6,165 nt of DNA, taken from Thermoplasmata archaeon. GTDB lineage: Archaea > Thermoplasmatota > Thermoplasmata > Thermoplasmatales > Thermoplasmataceae. The stretch is from NCBI GenBank assembly GCA_021850745.1, contig JAJZKX010000120.1, positions 1 to 6,165 on the forward strand. The letters run 5' to 3'. The position numbers and the translations under genes are program-made. The notes under the pieces were generated by a model. That model made no database searches. It saw only the letters and a list, made by a program, of their open reading frames with translations, and was not told the origin of the DNA. Shown here piece after piece: positions 1 to 6,165 of this stretch (position 1 is its first letter; every line of letters begins with the position of its first letter).

Positions 1-1859
1 CTGATTTCAGGCAGGGCACCCTTTACAGATCATATGAAATATTTGGAGCCCACATGATAAGATACCCGCAATGCACCGGCATCAGGTTTGTCGTTTGGGC
101 ACCAAATGCTGTTGCGGTCTCTGTAATTGGAAACTTCAACCACTGGATCCCCGGGTTTCATCCGATGATAAATGTTAATGATTCTGGAATATGGGAACTC
201 TTTATACCGGATATTCAAGATGAAACTTACAAATTTGCAATTAGAACCGGAGTTGGAACAATTATAAAAAAAACGGATCCCTATGCATTTTACGCCGAGC
301 TGAGGCCAGACACCGCTTCACGCTCATTCCTGCCAAAACATGAATGGCACGATAAGGGATGGATGGAAAAACGCACTTTCACGGATCATCAAAAGAAAAA
401 TATGTCAATCTATGAAATGCATCCCGGCTCATGGATGAGGAGAAAAGGCGGTGCATTCCTCAACTACAGGGATATTGCAGAACCTTTGTGCAGTTATGTG
501 AAGGATATGGGATTCACACATGTTGAACTGCTTCCAGTAATGGAACACCCCCTTGACGAATCATGGGGATACCAGGTTGTGAATTATTTTGCCCCAACAT
601 CAAGATTCGGCAATCCAGATGATTTCAGGTATCTTGTAGACTGCCTCCACTATGCAGGGATAGGAGTCATACTCGACTGGGTTCCCGCCCATTTTCCGCA
701 GGATCAGCACGGCCTCTCACTCTTCGACGGCACGCCCTTATTCGAGTATGGCGATCCAAGGAAAGGCCTTCATCCGGACTGGGGAACAAAGATATTTGAT
801 TACAGCAAGGGAGAGGTCATTAGTTTTCTCATATCAAACTGCATCTACTGGCTGGAACAATTCCACGCAGATGGCATTAGGATTGATGCGGTTTCATCTA
901 TGCTTTACCTTGATTATTCAAGAGGTCCCGGAAACTGGGTTCCGAACGTGAATGGGGGAAGGGAAAACCTGGAGGCAATAGAATTATTTAAACGTCTGAA
1001 CGACACCGTGCATAAGAGGTTCCCCGGAGCCATAATGATTGCCGAGGAATCCACGGCATGGCCCGGTGTTACCACAGATATATCATCAGGCGGGCTTGGA
1101 TTTGATTACAAGTGGAATATGGGATGGATGCATGACACTCTTGAATTCTTTTCATCTGATCCCATTAACAGGAAACACAATATGAACCGGTTAACATTCA
1201 GCCTGTGGTATGCATTTTCCGAGAGGTTTATCCTCCCGTTTTCCCATGATGAGGTTGTCCACGGGAAGGGATCGCTGCTTGGCAAGATGCCTGGAGACAT
1301 GGAATCAAGGAATTCCAATCTGAGGCTCTTGATATCATACATGTTTTCATTTCCGGGGAAGAAACTTCTCTTCATGGGTGCCGAATTGGGAAGAATGACA
1401 GAGTGGGATTTCAACTCCTCACTGATCAAAATGGCAAGGATTCCTCATGAAACGCCTCTCCAATACCTCATAAAATCGTTGAACGGCATCTATTCAACAT
1501 TCCGCCTTGGTGAAACTGACTTCTCCCAAAAGGCATTCCAGTGGATAGATTTCAACGACACCGCCAATACGGTCATATCATTTATCAGGAGAAATGATGA
1601 TGCGGAATCGATGCTGGTTTTTGTATTCAATTTCACGCCTGTCCCAAGAGAAGGATACAGGATAGGCATCCCGGAGAAAGGCAGGTATCGATCTGTATTC
1701 AATTCGGATTCGCAAGCCTTTGGAGGAAAGGGTTATCCGGAGAGGAAAGTGGCTGTTTCAGGGGAAACTGAGATGCATGGTTTCCCATGGTCACTTGAAC
1801 TGGATCTTCCGCCACTGTCATGCTTAATTTATATGAAAGAAAAGGAGGAGATGAAATGA
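1..1859 (+). CDS. glgB: 1,4-alpha-glucan branching enzyme GlgB (GH13), 5'-partial
   Basis: Transfers segments of alpha-1,4-glucan to form alpha-1,6 branches in cytosolic glycogen-like polymer. The reading frame is open to the left edge (first full codon at 3), and the residues before the ATG at 54 (DFRQGTLYRSYEIFGAH) match the start of the GlgB family, so 54 is internal and the true start lies outside the window. In order: a CBM48-type beta-sandwich at about 80-345 (FVVWAPNA, GNFNHW), the GH13 barrel from about 400 (YEMHPGSW), region I LDWVPAHF near 684, nucleophile Asp in RIDAVSSM (885-887), acid/base Glu in AEESTAWPG (1044-1046), third Asp in SHDEVVHGK (1248-1250), then a C-terminal beta domain (NFTPVPRE near 1635). 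About 618 residues are visible. The region after the third Asp is somewhat divergent (FMGAELGR rather than the usual FMGGEFGQ). The gene overlaps glgE by 4 bases. GH13 GlgB is the bacterial type; many archaea use GH57 branching enzymes instead. Confidence 0.95.
   Translation, partial: DFRQGTLYRSYEIFGAHMIRYPQCTGIRFVVWAPNAVAVSVIGNFNHWIPGFHPMINVNDSGIWELFIPDIQDETYKFAIRTGVGTIIKKTDPYAFYAELRPDTASRSFLPKHEWHDKGWMEKRTFTDHQKKNMSIYEMHPGSWMRRKGGAFLNYRDIAEPLCSYVKDMGFTHVELLPVMEHPLDESWGYQVVNYFAPTSRFGNPDDFRYLVDCLHYAGIGVILDWVPAHFPQDQHGLSLFDGTPLFEYGDPRKGLHPDWGTKIFDYSKGEVISFLISNCIYWLEQFHADGIRIDAVSSMLYLDYSRGPGNWVPNVNGGRENLEAIELFKRLNDTVHKRFPGAIMIAEESTAWPGVTTDISSGGLGFDYKWNMGWMHDTLEFFSSDPINRKHNMNRLTFSLWYAFSERFILPFSHDEVVHGKGSLLGKMPGDMESRNSNLRLLISYMFSFPGKKLLFMGAELGRMTEWDFNSSLIKMARIPHETPLQYLIKSLNGIYSTFRLGETDFSQKAFQWIDFNDTANTVISFIRRNDDAESMLVFVFNFTPVPREGYRIGIPEKGRYRSVFNSDSQAFGGKGYPERKVAVSGETEMHGFPWSLELDLPPLSCLIYMKEKEEMK
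1844..1848 (+). promoter_or_regulatory. Ribosome binding site of glgE
   Basis: GGAGG, set in the run AAAGGAGGAGATGA, lies 7 bases before the ATG at 1856 and inside the last codons of glgB. It decides the glgE start in favour of 1856 over the in-frame ATG at 1820. The ATG at 1851 is in the glgB frame and reads only Met-Lys-stop, so it is not a start. Confidence 0.8.
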
Positions 1860-3787
1860 GGAAAGACGATTTTTCAGGGGAAATAATAATCGACAGGATC
1901 TGGCCAAGCGTGGATCACGGTGCAATTCCCGCAAGGGGGCAGCACAATTTCCAGCAGGAAATCAGGTGCAGGATATTTTCCCATGGAACCGACATGATAC
2001 GCGGCCAGCTGAACTACCTTGAACCGGGTTCCGGGAGGTGGAAGAAGATCCAGATGAAGCGGGGAGAAAACGATTTTTACAGTGTCTTCATTAAATTAGG
2101 CTATGAGGGGACGTACCGGTTCTACATTGAGGCATGGTTTGACGATATCGCCACATGGTTCAGGAACCTGGAAAAGTGGAAAGATTCCGGTGAGGACATC
2201 TCACAGGATATTGAGGCAGGCATTGCCCTTTTCAAAGAGATAAGAAAGAATGCCACAGAGCGTGATGCAGGGAAGATAGATGCCGTTATGGCCGAATTGA
2301 AGGAAAAAAGGGACTTTCAGAAGAACCAAATGGATGCAATCGGCAATCTCATATTGAAATATCAGGACAGGCGTTCAAGAATCAGGAGTGAAAAATACGA
2401 GATCAATTCCCTCGGCCGGAAAGCGTATTTTGGCTCATGGTACGAAATGTTTCCCCGTTCCCAATCATCCGTTCCTGGAAAAACTGGGGCATTCAGGGAC
2501 TGCATAAAGCGGCTTCCTGACATAAAGGAAATGGGATTCGACGTGATCTATTTCCCGCCGATTCATCCAATAGGCAAGACAAACAGGAGGGGAAAAAACG
2601 GGGCGATGCCAGCTTCACAGGGAGACACAGGCAGCCCATGGGCCATCGGCAACATCCATGGAGGGCACAAGGCAATCAATCCTGATCTTGGAACCATGGA
2701 AGATTTCAGGAAACTTGTCAGCGCAGCATCAAAAGAGGGCATCTCCATTGCGCTTGACATTGCGCTTCAATGCTCTCCTGATCATCCATATGTCAGGGAA
2801 CATCCGGAATGGTTCTACCGGAGGCCGGATGGGTCGATCAGGTACGCGGAGAATCCTCCCAAGAAATACTTTGACATATATCCGCTGAATTTCCGGTGTG
2901 AAAACTGGAAGGAGCTGTGGGACGAAATCATGGGCATCTTTGAATTCTGGATAGGCGCAGGAATAAGGATCTTCAGGGTGGATAACCCACACACAAAGCC
3001 GCTCAACTTCTGGAAATGGCTCATCAGCAGCATAAATTCAAGATATCCGGATGTGGTATTCCTCAGTGAGGCTTTCACGAAGCCATCTGTCATGTATCAG
3101 TTGTCTAAATTTGGATTCCAGCAGTCCTATACTTATTTCACATGGAAGAACTATGACTATGAGATCAGGGATTATTTCACAGAACTCAACAGCCCACAGG
3201 TCAGTGCATTCTTCCAGCCAATGCTTTTCACCAACACGCCTGATATCCTGCCCTTCACCCTGCAGAACGGTGGAAGGGCTGCGTTCATATTGCGTGCAGT
3301 TCTTGCAGCAACACTTTCCCCCTTATGGGGAATCTACAGCGGATTCGAGCTATGTGAAAACACGGCAATACCGGGCACGGAGGAGTACCTTGATTCCGAA
3401 AAATTCCAGCTGAGGCAGAGAGACTGGAGAGGTCCCGGGAATATCAGGGAGATCATTTGGAAACTCAACGGGATAAGGGAAAAGGTGTTGAATTTCCAGA
3501 AGCATGGCAACGTGAAATTCATCAACACCGGCAACCATAATATCCTTGCATATGTCCGAACTCTCAGGGATTCCGCATCGATCCTGATAATCGTGAACAT
3601 AAACCCATTCGAGATCCATTCATCAAGCGTTTCAACGCCAGAAGACTGGCTTGATGATGACAGGAAGGAATTTCCCGTAAGAGATCTGGTGACAGGAGAA
3701 TCGATGGTATGGAGCAAAGGCAATAACATGGTAAAGCTTGTACCAGAATACAGATGTGCAATGATACTGTCAAAGGTGGATAAGTGA
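1856..3787 (+). CDS. glgE: Alpha-1,4-glucan:maltose-1-phosphate maltosyltransferase GlgE (GH13_3)
   Basis: Transfers maltosyl units from alpha-maltose-1-phosphate to the non-reducing end of alpha-1,4-glucan, releasing phosphate; cytosolic, and a homodimer in characterised members. The product has 643 residues, slightly shorter than the roughly 660-700 of actinobacterial enzymes. Start ATG 1856 is chosen because GGAGG lies 7 bases upstream and it forms an ATGA overlap with the glgB stop; an in-frame ATG at 1820 would add 12 residues but sits before that site. Visible in order: N-terminal beta domain (RIWPSVDHG, about 14-22), helical stretch about 125-180, barrel from FGSWYEMFPRS (about 192), GSPWAIG (259-265), region I LDIALQCSPDH with D301, AENPPKKYFDIYPLNF, nucleophile D376 in FRVDNPHTKP, acid/base E405 in LSEAFTKP, D463 in NTPDIL, and a C-terminal beta domain from about 560. 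The spacing of the three acidic residues (29, 58) is close to that of Streptomyces GlgE. GlgE motifs such as AENPPKKY and DNPHTKP separate it from ordinary amylases. Confidence 0.97.
   Translation: MRKDDFSGEIIIDRIWPSVDHGAIPARGQHNFQQEIRCRIFSHGTDMIRGQLNYLEPGSGRWKKIQMKRGENDFYSVFIKLGYEGTYRFYIEAWFDDIATWFRNLEKWKDSGEDISQDIEAGIALFKEIRKNATERDAGKIDAVMAELKEKRDFQKNQMDAIGNLILKYQDRRSRIRSEKYEINSLGRKAYFGSWYEMFPRSQSSVPGKTGAFRDCIKRLPDIKEMGFDVIYFPPIHPIGKTNRRGKNGAMPASQGDTGSPWAIGNIHGGHKAINPDLGTMEDFRKLVSAASKEGISIALDIALQCSPDHPYVREHPEWFYRRPDGSIRYAENPPKKYFDIYPLNFRCENWKELWDEIMGIFEFWIGAGIRIFRVDNPHTKPLNFWKWLISSINSRYPDVVFLSEAFTKPSVMYQLSKFGFQQSYTYFTWKNYDYEIRDYFTELNSPQVSAFFQPMLFTNTPDILPFTLQNGGRAAFILRAVLAATLSPLWGIYSGFELCENTAIPGTEEYLDSEKFQLRQRDWRGPGNIREIIWKLNGIREKVLNFQKHGNVKFINTGNHNILAYVRTLRDSASILIIVNINPFEIHSSSVSTPEDWLDDDRKEFPVRDLVTGESMVWSKGNNMVKLVPEYRCAMILSKVDK
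3774..3778 (+). promoter_or_regulatory. Ribosome binding site of treS
   Basis: AGGTG, complementary to the CACCU of the 16S rRNA 3' end, lies 5 bases before the GTG start at 3784 and inside the glgE tail. It supports GTG as the true treS start, since there is no ATG nearby in the frame. The motif is weaker than the GGAGG of its neighbours, so treS may depend more on re-initiation by ribosomes finishing glgE. Confidence 0.65.
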
Positions 3788-5436
3788 TTAGCGAAGAAGA
3801 AAAGCTGTGGTACCGGGATGCGGCATTTTATGAGGTTCCCGTGAGAAGTTTCTTTGATTCGAACAGAGATGGCATCGGCGACTTCAGGGGATTGACCACG
3901 AAGCTGGATTATATAAAGAGCATAGGGATGGACTGCATATGGCTTCTCCCGTTCTATAGATCACCGCTGAAGGACGATGGCTATGACATAAGTGATTATT
4001 ATTCGATTCTTCCCGAATATGGCACCATTGAGGATTTTGAGAAGTTAGTGGAGGAGGCGCATAACCGTGGAATAAAGGTCATTGCCGATCTCGTCATAAA
4101 TCACGTGTCGGATCAGCACAAATGGTTCGTGGAAGCCAGATCCGGAAAAAACAGCGCAAAAAGGGATTGGTTTGTATGGTCTGATACCCCGGACAAGTTC
4201 AGGGAAGCCAGAATAATATTCGTTGACACAGAAACATCGAACTGGGCATGGGACCAGATTTCAGGGCAATATTACTTCCACAGATTCTACAGCCACCAGC
4301 CGGATCTCAACTATGACAACCCGGAGGTCAGGGAAGAGATGAAGCGCGTAATCAGGTTCTGGCTTGATAAGGGGTTGGACGGTTTCAGGTGCGATGCAGT
4401 GCCATACCTGTTCAAGAGGGAGGGGACAAACTGCGAGAACCTTCCGGAAACCCACAGGTATTTCAAGGAGATCCGGGCGATGATAGACAGGGAATACCCA
4501 GGACGCATCCTGCTGGCTGAGGCCAACCAGTGGCCCAAGAGTGCCAAGGAATATTTTGGGAACCAGGACGAATTTCACATGAATTTTAATTTCCCGCTGA
4601 TGCCAAGAATATTCATTTCACTTGCGAAGGAGGACTCATTCCCGATTGAAAACATAATCAAGGAGACCCTTCCCATACCGGAAAAATGTGACTGGGGAGT
4701 ATTCCTGAGAAACCATGATGAACTGACACTGGAGATGGTCACAGACGAGGAACGGGACCTGATGTTCAACGAATACGCAAAGGTACCGAAGATGAGGCTC
4801 AACATGGGAATCCGCAGAAGGCTGGCACCGCTTGTCGACAACGACCGGTATATCCTGGAACTGCTCCATGCCCTGATAATGAGCGTTCCGGGTTCGCCAA
4901 TATTCTACTACGGTGACGAAATCAATATGGGAGACAACATCTACCTTGGGGACAGGAATGGCGTCAGAACGCCAATGCAATGGAGCTTCGACAGGAATTC
5001 CGGATTTTCCATGGCAGATTCCGACCAGCTCTTTTCACCAATAATTACCAATCCAAATTACCACTATGAGAGCAATAATGTGGAATCGATGTCACGGCTC
5101 AACACATCCTTCCTTAACTGGTTCAGGAGGATGATTGTTGTGAGAAAGCAGAATTCGAAGGTTCTCGGCAGGGGGACGATCAGGTTCATCGCCAATGACC
5201 AGAAGCAGATCCTGGCTTTCATAAGGGAATATGGCGAAGAGAAGATACTCTGCGTTTACAACCTTTCAAGGAATCCTTCATATGTCGAATTGCACATTCC
5301 GGAATACAATGGATGGCACCTTAGGGAAGCGATCAGTTCCGTAAGGTTTCCCGACATCGGGAAACTTCCCTATTTCTTCACTCTCCCTAGGCATTCATTT
5401 TTCTGGCTGATAATGGAGGCTCCCAATGGAAACTGA
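3784..5436 (+). CDS. treS: Trehalose synthase / maltose alpha-D-glucosyltransferase TreS (GH13_16)
   Basis: Reversibly isomerises maltose and trehalose by an intramolecular double displacement; in GlgE-pathway organisms it supplies maltose from trehalose for phosphorylation. The product has 550 residues with a GTG start that overlaps the glgE stop (GTGA) and follows an AGGTG motif by 5 bases. Motifs: WYRDAAFYEVPVRSFFDSN at the N-terminus, DGYDISDYY, region I ADLVINHVSDQH (D102, H107), WSDTPDK, the TreS-typical ETSNW and RFYSHQPDLN, nucleophile D204 in FRCDAVPYL, REGTNCENLPETH, acid/base E246 in LAEANQWP, D312 in LRNHDELTLEMVTDEERD, YYGDEINMGDNIYLGDRNGVRTPMQW split across about 379-401, and a C-terminal beta domain. 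It is a stand-alone enzyme: it stops after the beta domain, and the maltokinase follows as a separate gene instead of a fused C-terminal domain. A TreS from the thermoacidophilic archaeon Picrophilus torridus has been characterised, as I recall, so an archaeal TreS would not be unprecedented. Confidence 0.97.
   Translation: MISEEEKLWYRDAAFYEVPVRSFFDSNRDGIGDFRGLTTKLDYIKSIGMDCIWLLPFYRSPLKDDGYDISDYYSILPEYGTIEDFEKLVEEAHNRGIKVIADLVINHVSDQHKWFVEARSGKNSAKRDWFVWSDTPDKFREARIIFVDTETSNWAWDQISGQYYFHRFYSHQPDLNYDNPEVREEMKRVIRFWLDKGLDGFRCDAVPYLFKREGTNCENLPETHRYFKEIRAMIDREYPGRILLAEANQWPKSAKEYFGNQDEFHMNFNFPLMPRIFISLAKEDSFPIENIIKETLPIPEKCDWGVFLRNHDELTLEMVTDEERDLMFNEYAKVPKMRLNMGIRRRLAPLVDNDRYILELLHALIMSVPGSPIFYYGDEINMGDNIYLGDRNGVRTPMQWSFDRNSGFSMADSDQLFSPIITNPNYHYESNNVESMSRLNTSFLNWFRRMIVVRKQNSKVLGRGTIRFIANDQKQILAFIREYGEEKILCVYNLSRNPSYVELHIPEYNGWHLREAISSVRFPDIGKLPYFFTLPRHSFFWLIMEAPNGN
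5344..5367 (+). repeat. Inverted repeat / potential RNA hairpin within the end of treS
   Basis: GTTTCCCGA (5346-5354) and TCGGGAAAC (5357-5365) are exact reverse complements separated by CA. With a realistic 4-base loop (ACAT) this gives 8 Watson-Crick pairs, extended outward by a G-U pair (5345/5366) and an A-U pair (5344/5367). It lies inside treS codons, roughly 60 bases before the mak start, and has no U-tract after it, so it is not a classical terminator. It may be chance or an mRNA structure; function is unknown. Confidence 0.5.
5415..5419 (+). promoter_or_regulatory. Ribosome binding site of mak
   Basis: GGAGG lies 6 bases before the ATG at 5426 and inside the treS tail. It fixes the mak start although that start falls 11 bases before the treS stop codon. 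Confidence 0.8.
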
Positions 5437-6165
5437 TGGCGGAAAGATCGACCTTCTGGATGAAGAGAACAATCAGTTCGTGACAGGGATCATAGAGTCA
5501 ATCAAGGCAAAGCGATGGTACCCATTCAAGTCAGAGAGCGACCTGCAATTCACCGTTCTGGATTCCATCCCTGCGGTGGCGGAAAGGAATAAGCCCTTCA
5601 TGCTGCTGCTCAAGCCCAACAGGATTGGCGATCTGATCCTGTCTGCAGCACCGGTCATCACATGGGATGATGGTTCACAGGAAAGGGAAATCATCAGGAT
5701 AACTGATTCAATAGAAACAGGGAGTTTCCTTCAATTTATTGAGGATATAGTGAAAAACAGGAATGCTGAGGGAAGACATGGTAAACTGGGTCTTGAAGGT
5801 GAATTTATTGCGGAATTCGTCAGTCATTCCAACGTCAGCACTTCCCTGACTCCACTGAATATTGAGCAGTCAAACAGTTCATTTGTAATTGGTGATCAGC
5901 TCATCTGCAAGTTCATGAGGAGGGTGGAACCTGGGGAGAATCCTGACATAACGATTCCGCACAAACTTTACATGGAGACGCAGTTCAGGAATACGCCGAG
6001 GCCAATAGGGCAGCTCGTTTACCGTGATAGGCAGCCTTTCACGCTCATGTCGATCCATTCATTTATCAGGAATCAGGGAGATTACTGGAAGCACTTCACA
6101 GGAGAAGCTGCGTCAATGGCTGAAAGAGAAAAACCAGGAAGTGCAGCAGGCGGGAAAGAATATAA
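5426..6165 (+). CDS. mak: Maltokinase Mak (Pep2-like), N-terminal part, 3'-partial
   Basis: Phosphorylates maltose at C1 with ATP to give maltose-1-phosphate, the donor for GlgE. The open frame begins at ATG 5426, 11 bases before the treS stop, with GGAGG 6 bases upstream, and runs without a stop to the right edge, giving 246 complete residues. Visible: an N-terminal cap subdomain with the KRWYPFKS segment (29-36; compare RWF..K in the family) and a beta-rich region to about residue 140, then the diagnostic EQSNSSFVIGDQLICKFMRR (147-166) followed by VEPGENPDI (167-175). In family members this is the start of the kinase N-lobe, with the likely ATP-contacting lysine K162. The catalytic loop and metal-binding residues of the aminoglycoside-phosphotransferase-like fold lie beyond the window, so completeness and activity cannot be judged. 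It is separate from TreS, not fused. Arginine codons are 13 AGG/AGA of 15, like the neighbours, so it shares their origin or has ameliorated with them. Confidence 0.93.
   Translation, partial: METDGGKIDLLDEENNQFVTGIIESIKAKRWYPFKSESDLQFTVLDSIPAVAERNKPFMLLLKPNRIGDLILSAAPVITWDDGSQEREIIRITDSIETGSFLQFIEDIVKNRNAEGRHGKLGLEGEFIAEFVSHSNVSTSLTPLNIEQSNSSFVIGDQLICKFMRRVEPGENPDITIPHKLYMETQFRNTPRPIGQLVYRDRQPFTLMSIHSFIRNQGDYWKHFTGEAASMAEREKPGSAAGGKEY

Follow-up and report, generated by a model that had tools for sequence, protein, structure and literature searches.

The 6,165-nucleotide stretch analysed here (the window; contig JAJZKX010000120.1 of a Thermoplasmata archaeon assembly) is spanned by four contiguous open reading frames (ORFs) on the plus strand, which encode the enzymes of the GlgE pathway: the branching enzyme GlgB, the maltosyltransferase GlgE, the trehalose synthase TreS and the maltokinase Mak. 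We are highly confident that they form a GlgE-pathway operon belonging to an uncultured archaeon of the Thermoplasmata, probably of a Thermoplasmataceae kind. The original prediction of four contiguous GlgE-pathway genes, made from the letters of the window, is borne out by the ORFs, their family matches and their order on one strand. The window holds the following features.

3–1859, plus strand: glgB, 1,4-alpha-glucan branching enzyme, truncated at the 5′ end (618 residues in the window; profile NF003811, GlgB structures and the L001 homologue)
1844–1848, plus strand: Shine–Dalgarno-like GGAGG of glgE (from the sequence; ATG 1856 lies 7 bases downstream)
1856–3787, plus strand: glgE, alpha-1,4-glucan:maltose-1-phosphate maltosyltransferase (643 residues; PF11896, PF21702, GlgE structures in the PDB, length of P0001, donor-site residues)
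3774–3778, plus strand: Shine–Dalgarno-like AGGTG of treS (from the sequence; GTG 3784 lies 5 bases downstream)
3784–5436, plus strand: treS, trehalose synthase / maltose alpha-D-glucosyltransferase (550 residues, GTG start; TIGR02456, TreS structures)
5415–5419, plus strand: Shine–Dalgarno-like GGAGG of mak (from the sequence; ATG 5426 lies 6 bases downstream)
5426–6163, plus strand: mak (pep2), maltokinase, N-terminal 246 residues only, running past the window end (TIGR02457, G221 homologue)

The gene layout is that of a co-translated operon. The overlaps measure 4 bases between glgB and glgE (ATGA), 4 bases between glgE and treS (GTGA) and 11 bases between treS and mak, and GGAGG or AGGTG lies 5–7 bases ahead of all three starts inside the window, as the original prediction of strong sites of this kind had stated. 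A glgE start at 1820, given in the ORF list, is less likely than ATG 1856, which is preferred because GGAGG lies 7 bases upstream, because the start overlaps the stop codon of glgB (ATGA), and because the resulting 643 residues equal the length of the relative P0001. All four genes lie in the window, two of them as partial copies. The earlier claim of a complete operon does not hold for the window: glgB is short of about 108 residues at its N terminus, and mak breaks off after 246 of about 482.

GlgB matches the NCBIfam branching-enzyme equivalog NF003811 with 879 bits (cut-off 741) and carries its CBM48 and C-terminal domains, with PF02922, PF00128 and PF02806 all above cut-off; solved GlgB structures are matched at E 2e-200. 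The position of its truncation, about 108 codons in, is given by the homologue at locus L001 (1309–3489; 726 residues at full length, 91% identical), which belongs to the Thermoplasmata metagenome-assembled genome (MAG) TL1-4.bin52, here G001. Upstream of glgB in L001, positions 1–869 hold a 289-residue minus-strand frame that matches nothing in Pfam or NCBIfam at E 0.001. TreS gives a full-length equivalog match to TIGR02456 over residues 9–544 (902 bits, cut-off 678.35), and matches solved TreS structures at E 2e-232.

GlgE carries the GlgE-specific N/S and C domains (PF11896, 114.2 bits, cut-off 25; PF21702, 44.2 bits, cut-off 27) and matches solved GlgE structures at E 1e-158. Its donor site is identical to that of Streptomyces GlgE (Sco) at 11 of 12 positions, counted by hand on the structure-match alignment, and has Phe for Tyr at the twelfth. 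Residues Q305, N333, K336, Y338, D340 and R374 correspond to Sco Q324, N352, K355, Y357, D359 and R392, whereas D376 (the nucleophile), N377, E405 (the acid/base), D463 and K516 correspond to Sco D394, N395, E423, D480 and K534. We take Sco K355 to be a donor-site residue. In the donor-contacting Lys–Tyr pair of insert 2 the lysine (K516) is kept and the tyrosine is replaced by F517. The columns of the nucleophile, the acid/base and the phosphate contacts (D376, E405, N333, Y338 and N377) are invariant among the 120 listed homologues, the best of 8000 scored candidates. Ten of the 11 matched residues are named as donor contacts in excerpts of PMC4663749, with the mycobacterial numbering converted by a constant offset, and five of these are named as donor contacts also in excerpts of PMC9501709. 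Maltosyl transfer from maltose 1-phosphate is the predicted activity of the protein.

The half protein of Mak present in the window matches TIGR02457 with 73.8 bits (E 1e-20), below the cut-off of 375. Its residues 7–231 are 49% identical to a 482-residue protein of G221, a genome assigned to the same family as G001, and the best PDB matches of that protein are maltokinases (E 3.5e-29). The Mak homologues of G168, G221, G240, G003 and G184 contain the motifs HGDxHxGQ and IDFEGEP, which are presumably the catalytic motifs of Mak. The reading frame of the window aligns with its relatives to about residue 231, beyond which the region is variable; the last ~60 bases of mak (window 6100–6165) are also open in a second frame, and a late frameshift is possible.

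The operon recurs in related genomes. A tblastn search of the four window proteins against 27 loci, five of which are cut by contig ends (L001, its duplicate L094, L005, L092 and L095), found the order glgB-glgE-treS-mak on one strand at 19 loci from 18 Thermoplasmata genomes. The two bacterial loci differ, with glgE-treS-mak-glgB at L006 and glgE-mak-glgB, without a treS match, at L007. Downstream of mak, 11 of the 21 archaeal loci showing mak carry an extra GH13 gene in the same orientation, and three of the ten loci without it end soon after mak; the gene was named GlgX by hmmscan in both cases tested (L079 and L087), and at L087 treZ and treY come next, in convergent orientation. One genome, G222, holds two operon copies on two contigs (L080 and L081, 93% identical over 5364 bases), which may mean that the bin mixes two strains or species, or that the operon was duplicated. 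At L011, a 9.6-kb "Marsarchaeota" MAG contig, the end of glgB is followed by glgE, treS and, directly after treS, mak; an apparent absence of mak there, obtained with the half-protein query, was rejected when full-length G221 and G003 Mak queries found the gene. The L011 GlgE groups with the Thermoprotei GlgE P0086 (99*), and the contig may be misbinned or may represent a separate lineage carrying the pathway.

The nearest relatives give the window a Thermoplasmata origin, as had been proposed. Its GlgE is 98% identical to P0001, likewise of 643 residues, whose NCBI name is "MAG: alpha-1,4-glucan--maltose-1-phosphate maltosyltransferase [Thermoplasmataceae archaeon]"; the cluster of P0001 includes a 188-kb contig, and P0001 probably comes from the same or a sister species. 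The GlgE of L001 is 92% identical. As the L001 contig is short and of low coverage (5.7 kb, 1.2x), and by itself weak evidence of placement, the assignment leans more on a quick tree of 78 rows, midpoint-rooted and with Shimodaira–Hasegawa-like approximate likelihood ratio (SH-aLRT) support only. In this tree a starred clade unites the window with P0001 and L001 and adjoins G168, G221 and G222, all three assigned to the family of MAG TL1-4.bin52; the operon contig of G168 measures 556 kb. The arginine codons AGG and AGA, said to dominate, make up 107 of 136 in the window genes, and ATA, said to be frequent, 62 of 162 isoleucine codons, a usage that fits an archaeon but proves nothing alone; the counts cover the window only.

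Alternatively, the contig could be bacterial, or the operon a recent bacterial import in an archaeal-looking bin. The GlgE pathways studied in most depth are those of bacteria, GlgE proteins from Alphaproteobacteria reach 40–43% identity to that of the window, and 210 plasmid records, mostly of Rhizobium, match. The closest relatives, however, are archaeal by record name, the window shares its starred clade with same-family genomes, one of them with the operon on a contig of more than half a megabase, and the nearest MAG carries otsA-otsB near archaeal-type rpS13 and rpS4, though not on the operon contig. A bacterial origin was rejected on the identities and the tree, and the alternative as a whole is exceedingly improbable, being close to refuted already. 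Within the same class, the GlgE proteins of L020, L034, L031, L033, L036, L037 and L041 fall on the bacterial side of the tree. Their placement hints that GlgE may have more than one origin in Thermoplasmata, and a single archaeal GlgE clade is not settled.

The distribution of the pathway was surveyed in genomes of unstated completeness, so that single absences are weak, and with Fisher tests that ignore kinship. Of 200 genomes in the class to which G001 belongs, 31 have a PF11896 match, 30 above cut-off; 28 were counted as GlgE after two weak matches with long frames were dropped (G032, G140 and G108, at 23–27 bits in frames of 818–1188 residues, are not counted as GlgE). In the family of G001 (n = 77), 45 genomes match the window GlgE, of which 41 hold GlgE (40 strong matches, including a fragmented one, plus one truncated at a contig end) and four, G215, G231, G233 and G139 (E 2e-6 to 1e-3), were dropped as weak GH13 paralogues. 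The co-occurrence of glgE and mak, a survey of which the original prediction had proposed, is close: mak is present in 38 of the 41 GlgE-positive genomes and in none of the 36 GlgE-negative ones (p 8e-19). The three misses are G001 and G005, whose operon contigs end inside treS, and G238, in which glgE is in pieces. TreY above cut-off occurs in 20 of the 41 GlgE-positive genomes compared with 1 of the other 36, and in none of the four nearest genomes (G001, G168, G221 and G222). Glycogen phosphorylase (PF00343) was found in 0 of the 77 family genomes, the same search being positive in 12 of 14 control genomes, and GT3 synthase (PF05693) likewise in 0 of 77, with 2 of 14 controls positive.

The trehalose used by the pathway is probably made by OtsA-OtsB from nucleotide-glucose. 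In G001 an otsA-type gene (PF00982, 350 bits, above cut-off) overlaps otsB (TIGR00685, 77.5 bits, cut-off 68), and archaeal-type rpS13 and rpS4 (above cut-off) follow ~0.8 kb further on. An OtsA-family gene is present in 70 of the 77 family genomes (36/41 with GlgE, 34/36 without) and is not specific to GlgE genomes. In G168 (C3:518241–519549) this gene is split over two overlapping frames, by a frameshift or an assembly error. OtsA consumes nucleotide-glucose, and the route therefore bypasses glycogen synthase but probably not nucleotide-glucose. The earlier proposal that the archaeon makes branched glucan without an ADP- or UDP-glucose-dependent glycogen synthase holds in part: the synthase would be bypassed in the four nearest genomes, but nucleotide-glucose is probably still spent through OtsA-OtsB.

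Glycogen synthase was sought in the same family. PF08323 is above cut-off in 26 of the 77 genomes. These are precisely the genomes with a member of a single GT4 orthologue group, and the matches were rejected as classical GlgA: all belong to the GT4 group, and the G240 copy reaches 143 bits with TIGR02149 against a cut-off of 302. Sub-cut-off PF08323 matches in G211, G212 and G215 overlap the OtsA-family gene and were also set aside. The GT4 candidate in G240 sits between GH57 and GH133-type genes (L141, 611–4694), an arrangement like the GT4/GH133/GH57 cluster of Picrophilus torridus, for which excerpts of PMC11046441 give a possible GlgM-like activity as undecidable. Such a GT4 glucan-synthase candidate may offer a second route to glucan. 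The GT4 orthologue shows no anti-correlation with GlgE in the family (12/41 GlgE-positive vs 14/36 GlgE-negative genomes, p 0.47), and neither PF08323, nor GT3, nor a close GT4 orthologue (E 1e-100 or better) was found in G001, G168, G221 or G222. More distant GT4 matches are present in G001, G168 and G221 (best E 2e-12 to 2e-7), because of which "only elongation enzyme" should be read as the only one recognised. For the four nearest genomes, these gene contents support the prediction that glucan is made with no glycogen synthase involved. A stronger claim, that GlgE is the only alpha-glucan-lengthening enzyme in the clade and, with no phosphorylase found in the family, may also shorten glucan phosphorolytically, is unlikely.

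The identities and order of the genes, their overlaps, the lineage, the conserved active-site residues and the joint occurrence of glgE with mak and treY among relatives are shown; the enzyme activities, the direction of flux and a storage role are inferred. TreS would isomerize trehalose, supplied probably by OtsA-OtsB encoded elsewhere in the genome, to maltose; Mak would phosphorylate maltose with ATP to maltose 1-phosphate; GlgE would pass the maltosyl units of this donor onto the termini of alpha-1,4-glucan chains; and GlgB would put alpha-1,6 branches onto the glucan. Trimming of the glucan is probably the task of a GlgX, whose gene would lie just past mak as in near relatives.

Several observations weigh against this interpretation. 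The NCBIfam scan gave no GlgE match above cut-off, only weak GH13 relatives. At the donor-site position of F517 (window 3404–3406), which replaces Sco Y535, 9 of the 120 listed homologues likewise have Phe and 111 have Tyr. The catalytic half of mak lies beyond the window, the motif HGDLHLGQ occupying residues 342–349 of the G221 homologue, and the claim of diagnostic motifs in each of the four genes fails at this point; even the full-length G221 Mak, at 213 bits, stays below the curated NCBIfam score of 375. The OtsA candidate of G001 reaches 403 bits against an NCBIfam OtsA cut-off of 565, leaving its product uncertain, and the window's own contig bears no ribosomal or other marker. The direction of flux is not settled, because the TreS reaction is reversible.

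This reversibility is general knowledge, and it would allow a module running backwards, in which GlgE acts as a phosphorylase that frees maltose 1-phosphate and TreS makes trehalose, so that glucan is mobilized into trehalose. GlgE reverses at high phosphate according to excerpts of PMC9501709, the family search found no glycogen phosphorylase, and a GlgX-like gene follows mak at about half of the loci showing mak. However, Mak spends ATP in making the donor, which is hard to square with net breakdown; glgB, a synthesis gene, shares the operon; and TreY, which makes trehalose from glucan, is present in nearly half of the GlgE-positive genomes. We regard the reverse module as highly unlikely.

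An exported or capsular polymer in place of an intracellular store, as in one mycobacterial branch, is very improbable. The mycobacterial pathway is likely to be involved in an exposed capsular glucan (excerpts of PMC4306142), and Thermoplasmatales have no S-layer (excerpts of PMC12448462). The four scanned operon neighbours at L078 and L079 (a methyltransferase, a flavin reductase, a Glu/Leu/Phe/Val-type dehydrogenase and a TauE-type sulfite exporter family protein) give no pointer to glucan export, a weak argument on the other side. 

The window adds a real, ordinary further member to a documented set of pathways. Chandra et al. 2011 is said to be the primary survey of the GlgE pathway, and the TreS of P. 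torridus has reportedly been studied as an enzyme. Picrophilus, Acidiplasma and Cuniculiplasma presumably belong to the same order as the window archaeon. According to excerpts of PMC6355812, the full set of four enzymes was already known from P. torridus, and to it are added Acidiplasma cupricumulans BH2 and, as a further case, a Thermoplasmatales archaeon. Excerpts of PMC11046441 describe P. torridus, A. cupricumulans and Cuniculiplasma divulgatum as using GlgE in place of glycogen synthase, name Methanoculleus bourgensis in one sentence as a GlgE user, and cite TreS only as found in P. torridus. Across these sources GlgE and TreS are reported for P. torridus, A. cupricumulans and C. divulgatum, with Mak accessions for the first two. 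These are genome predictions; the window comes from a different, uncultured species, and the otsAB surroundings and the family-wide count are new relative to the excerpts. The TreS–Pep2/Mak–GlgE–GlgB pathway of Mycobacterium and Streptomyces comprises the same four enzyme families, whereas the window comes from an archaeon, its treS and mak genes stand apart from each other within an operon that also holds glgB and glgE, and no glycogen phosphorylase was found in the family. The original prediction named as its own refutation that the genes be common and already characterized in the lineage, and this is partly the case: common they are (41 of 77 family genomes), and the pathway is published as genome predictions, but searches of the open-access literature, in which most subscription journals are not covered, turned up no biochemical work on GlgE from an archaeon. 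Within those bounds the window is a clear added example of a pathway predicted in archaea.

What is most interesting is the surrounding frame: one recognised elongation enzyme, a near-universal OtsA, and no phosphorylase found in 77 genomes. It opens the question of whether an acidophilic archaeon stores glucan solely by way of trehalose. The survey makes this simple to test: GlgE and Mak occur together in the family, OtsA-family genes are widespread, neither glycogen phosphorylase nor GT3 synthase was found in the 77 genomes, and a cultured GlgE-bearing member exists in Oxyplasma meridianum (by protein name; an isolate is known).

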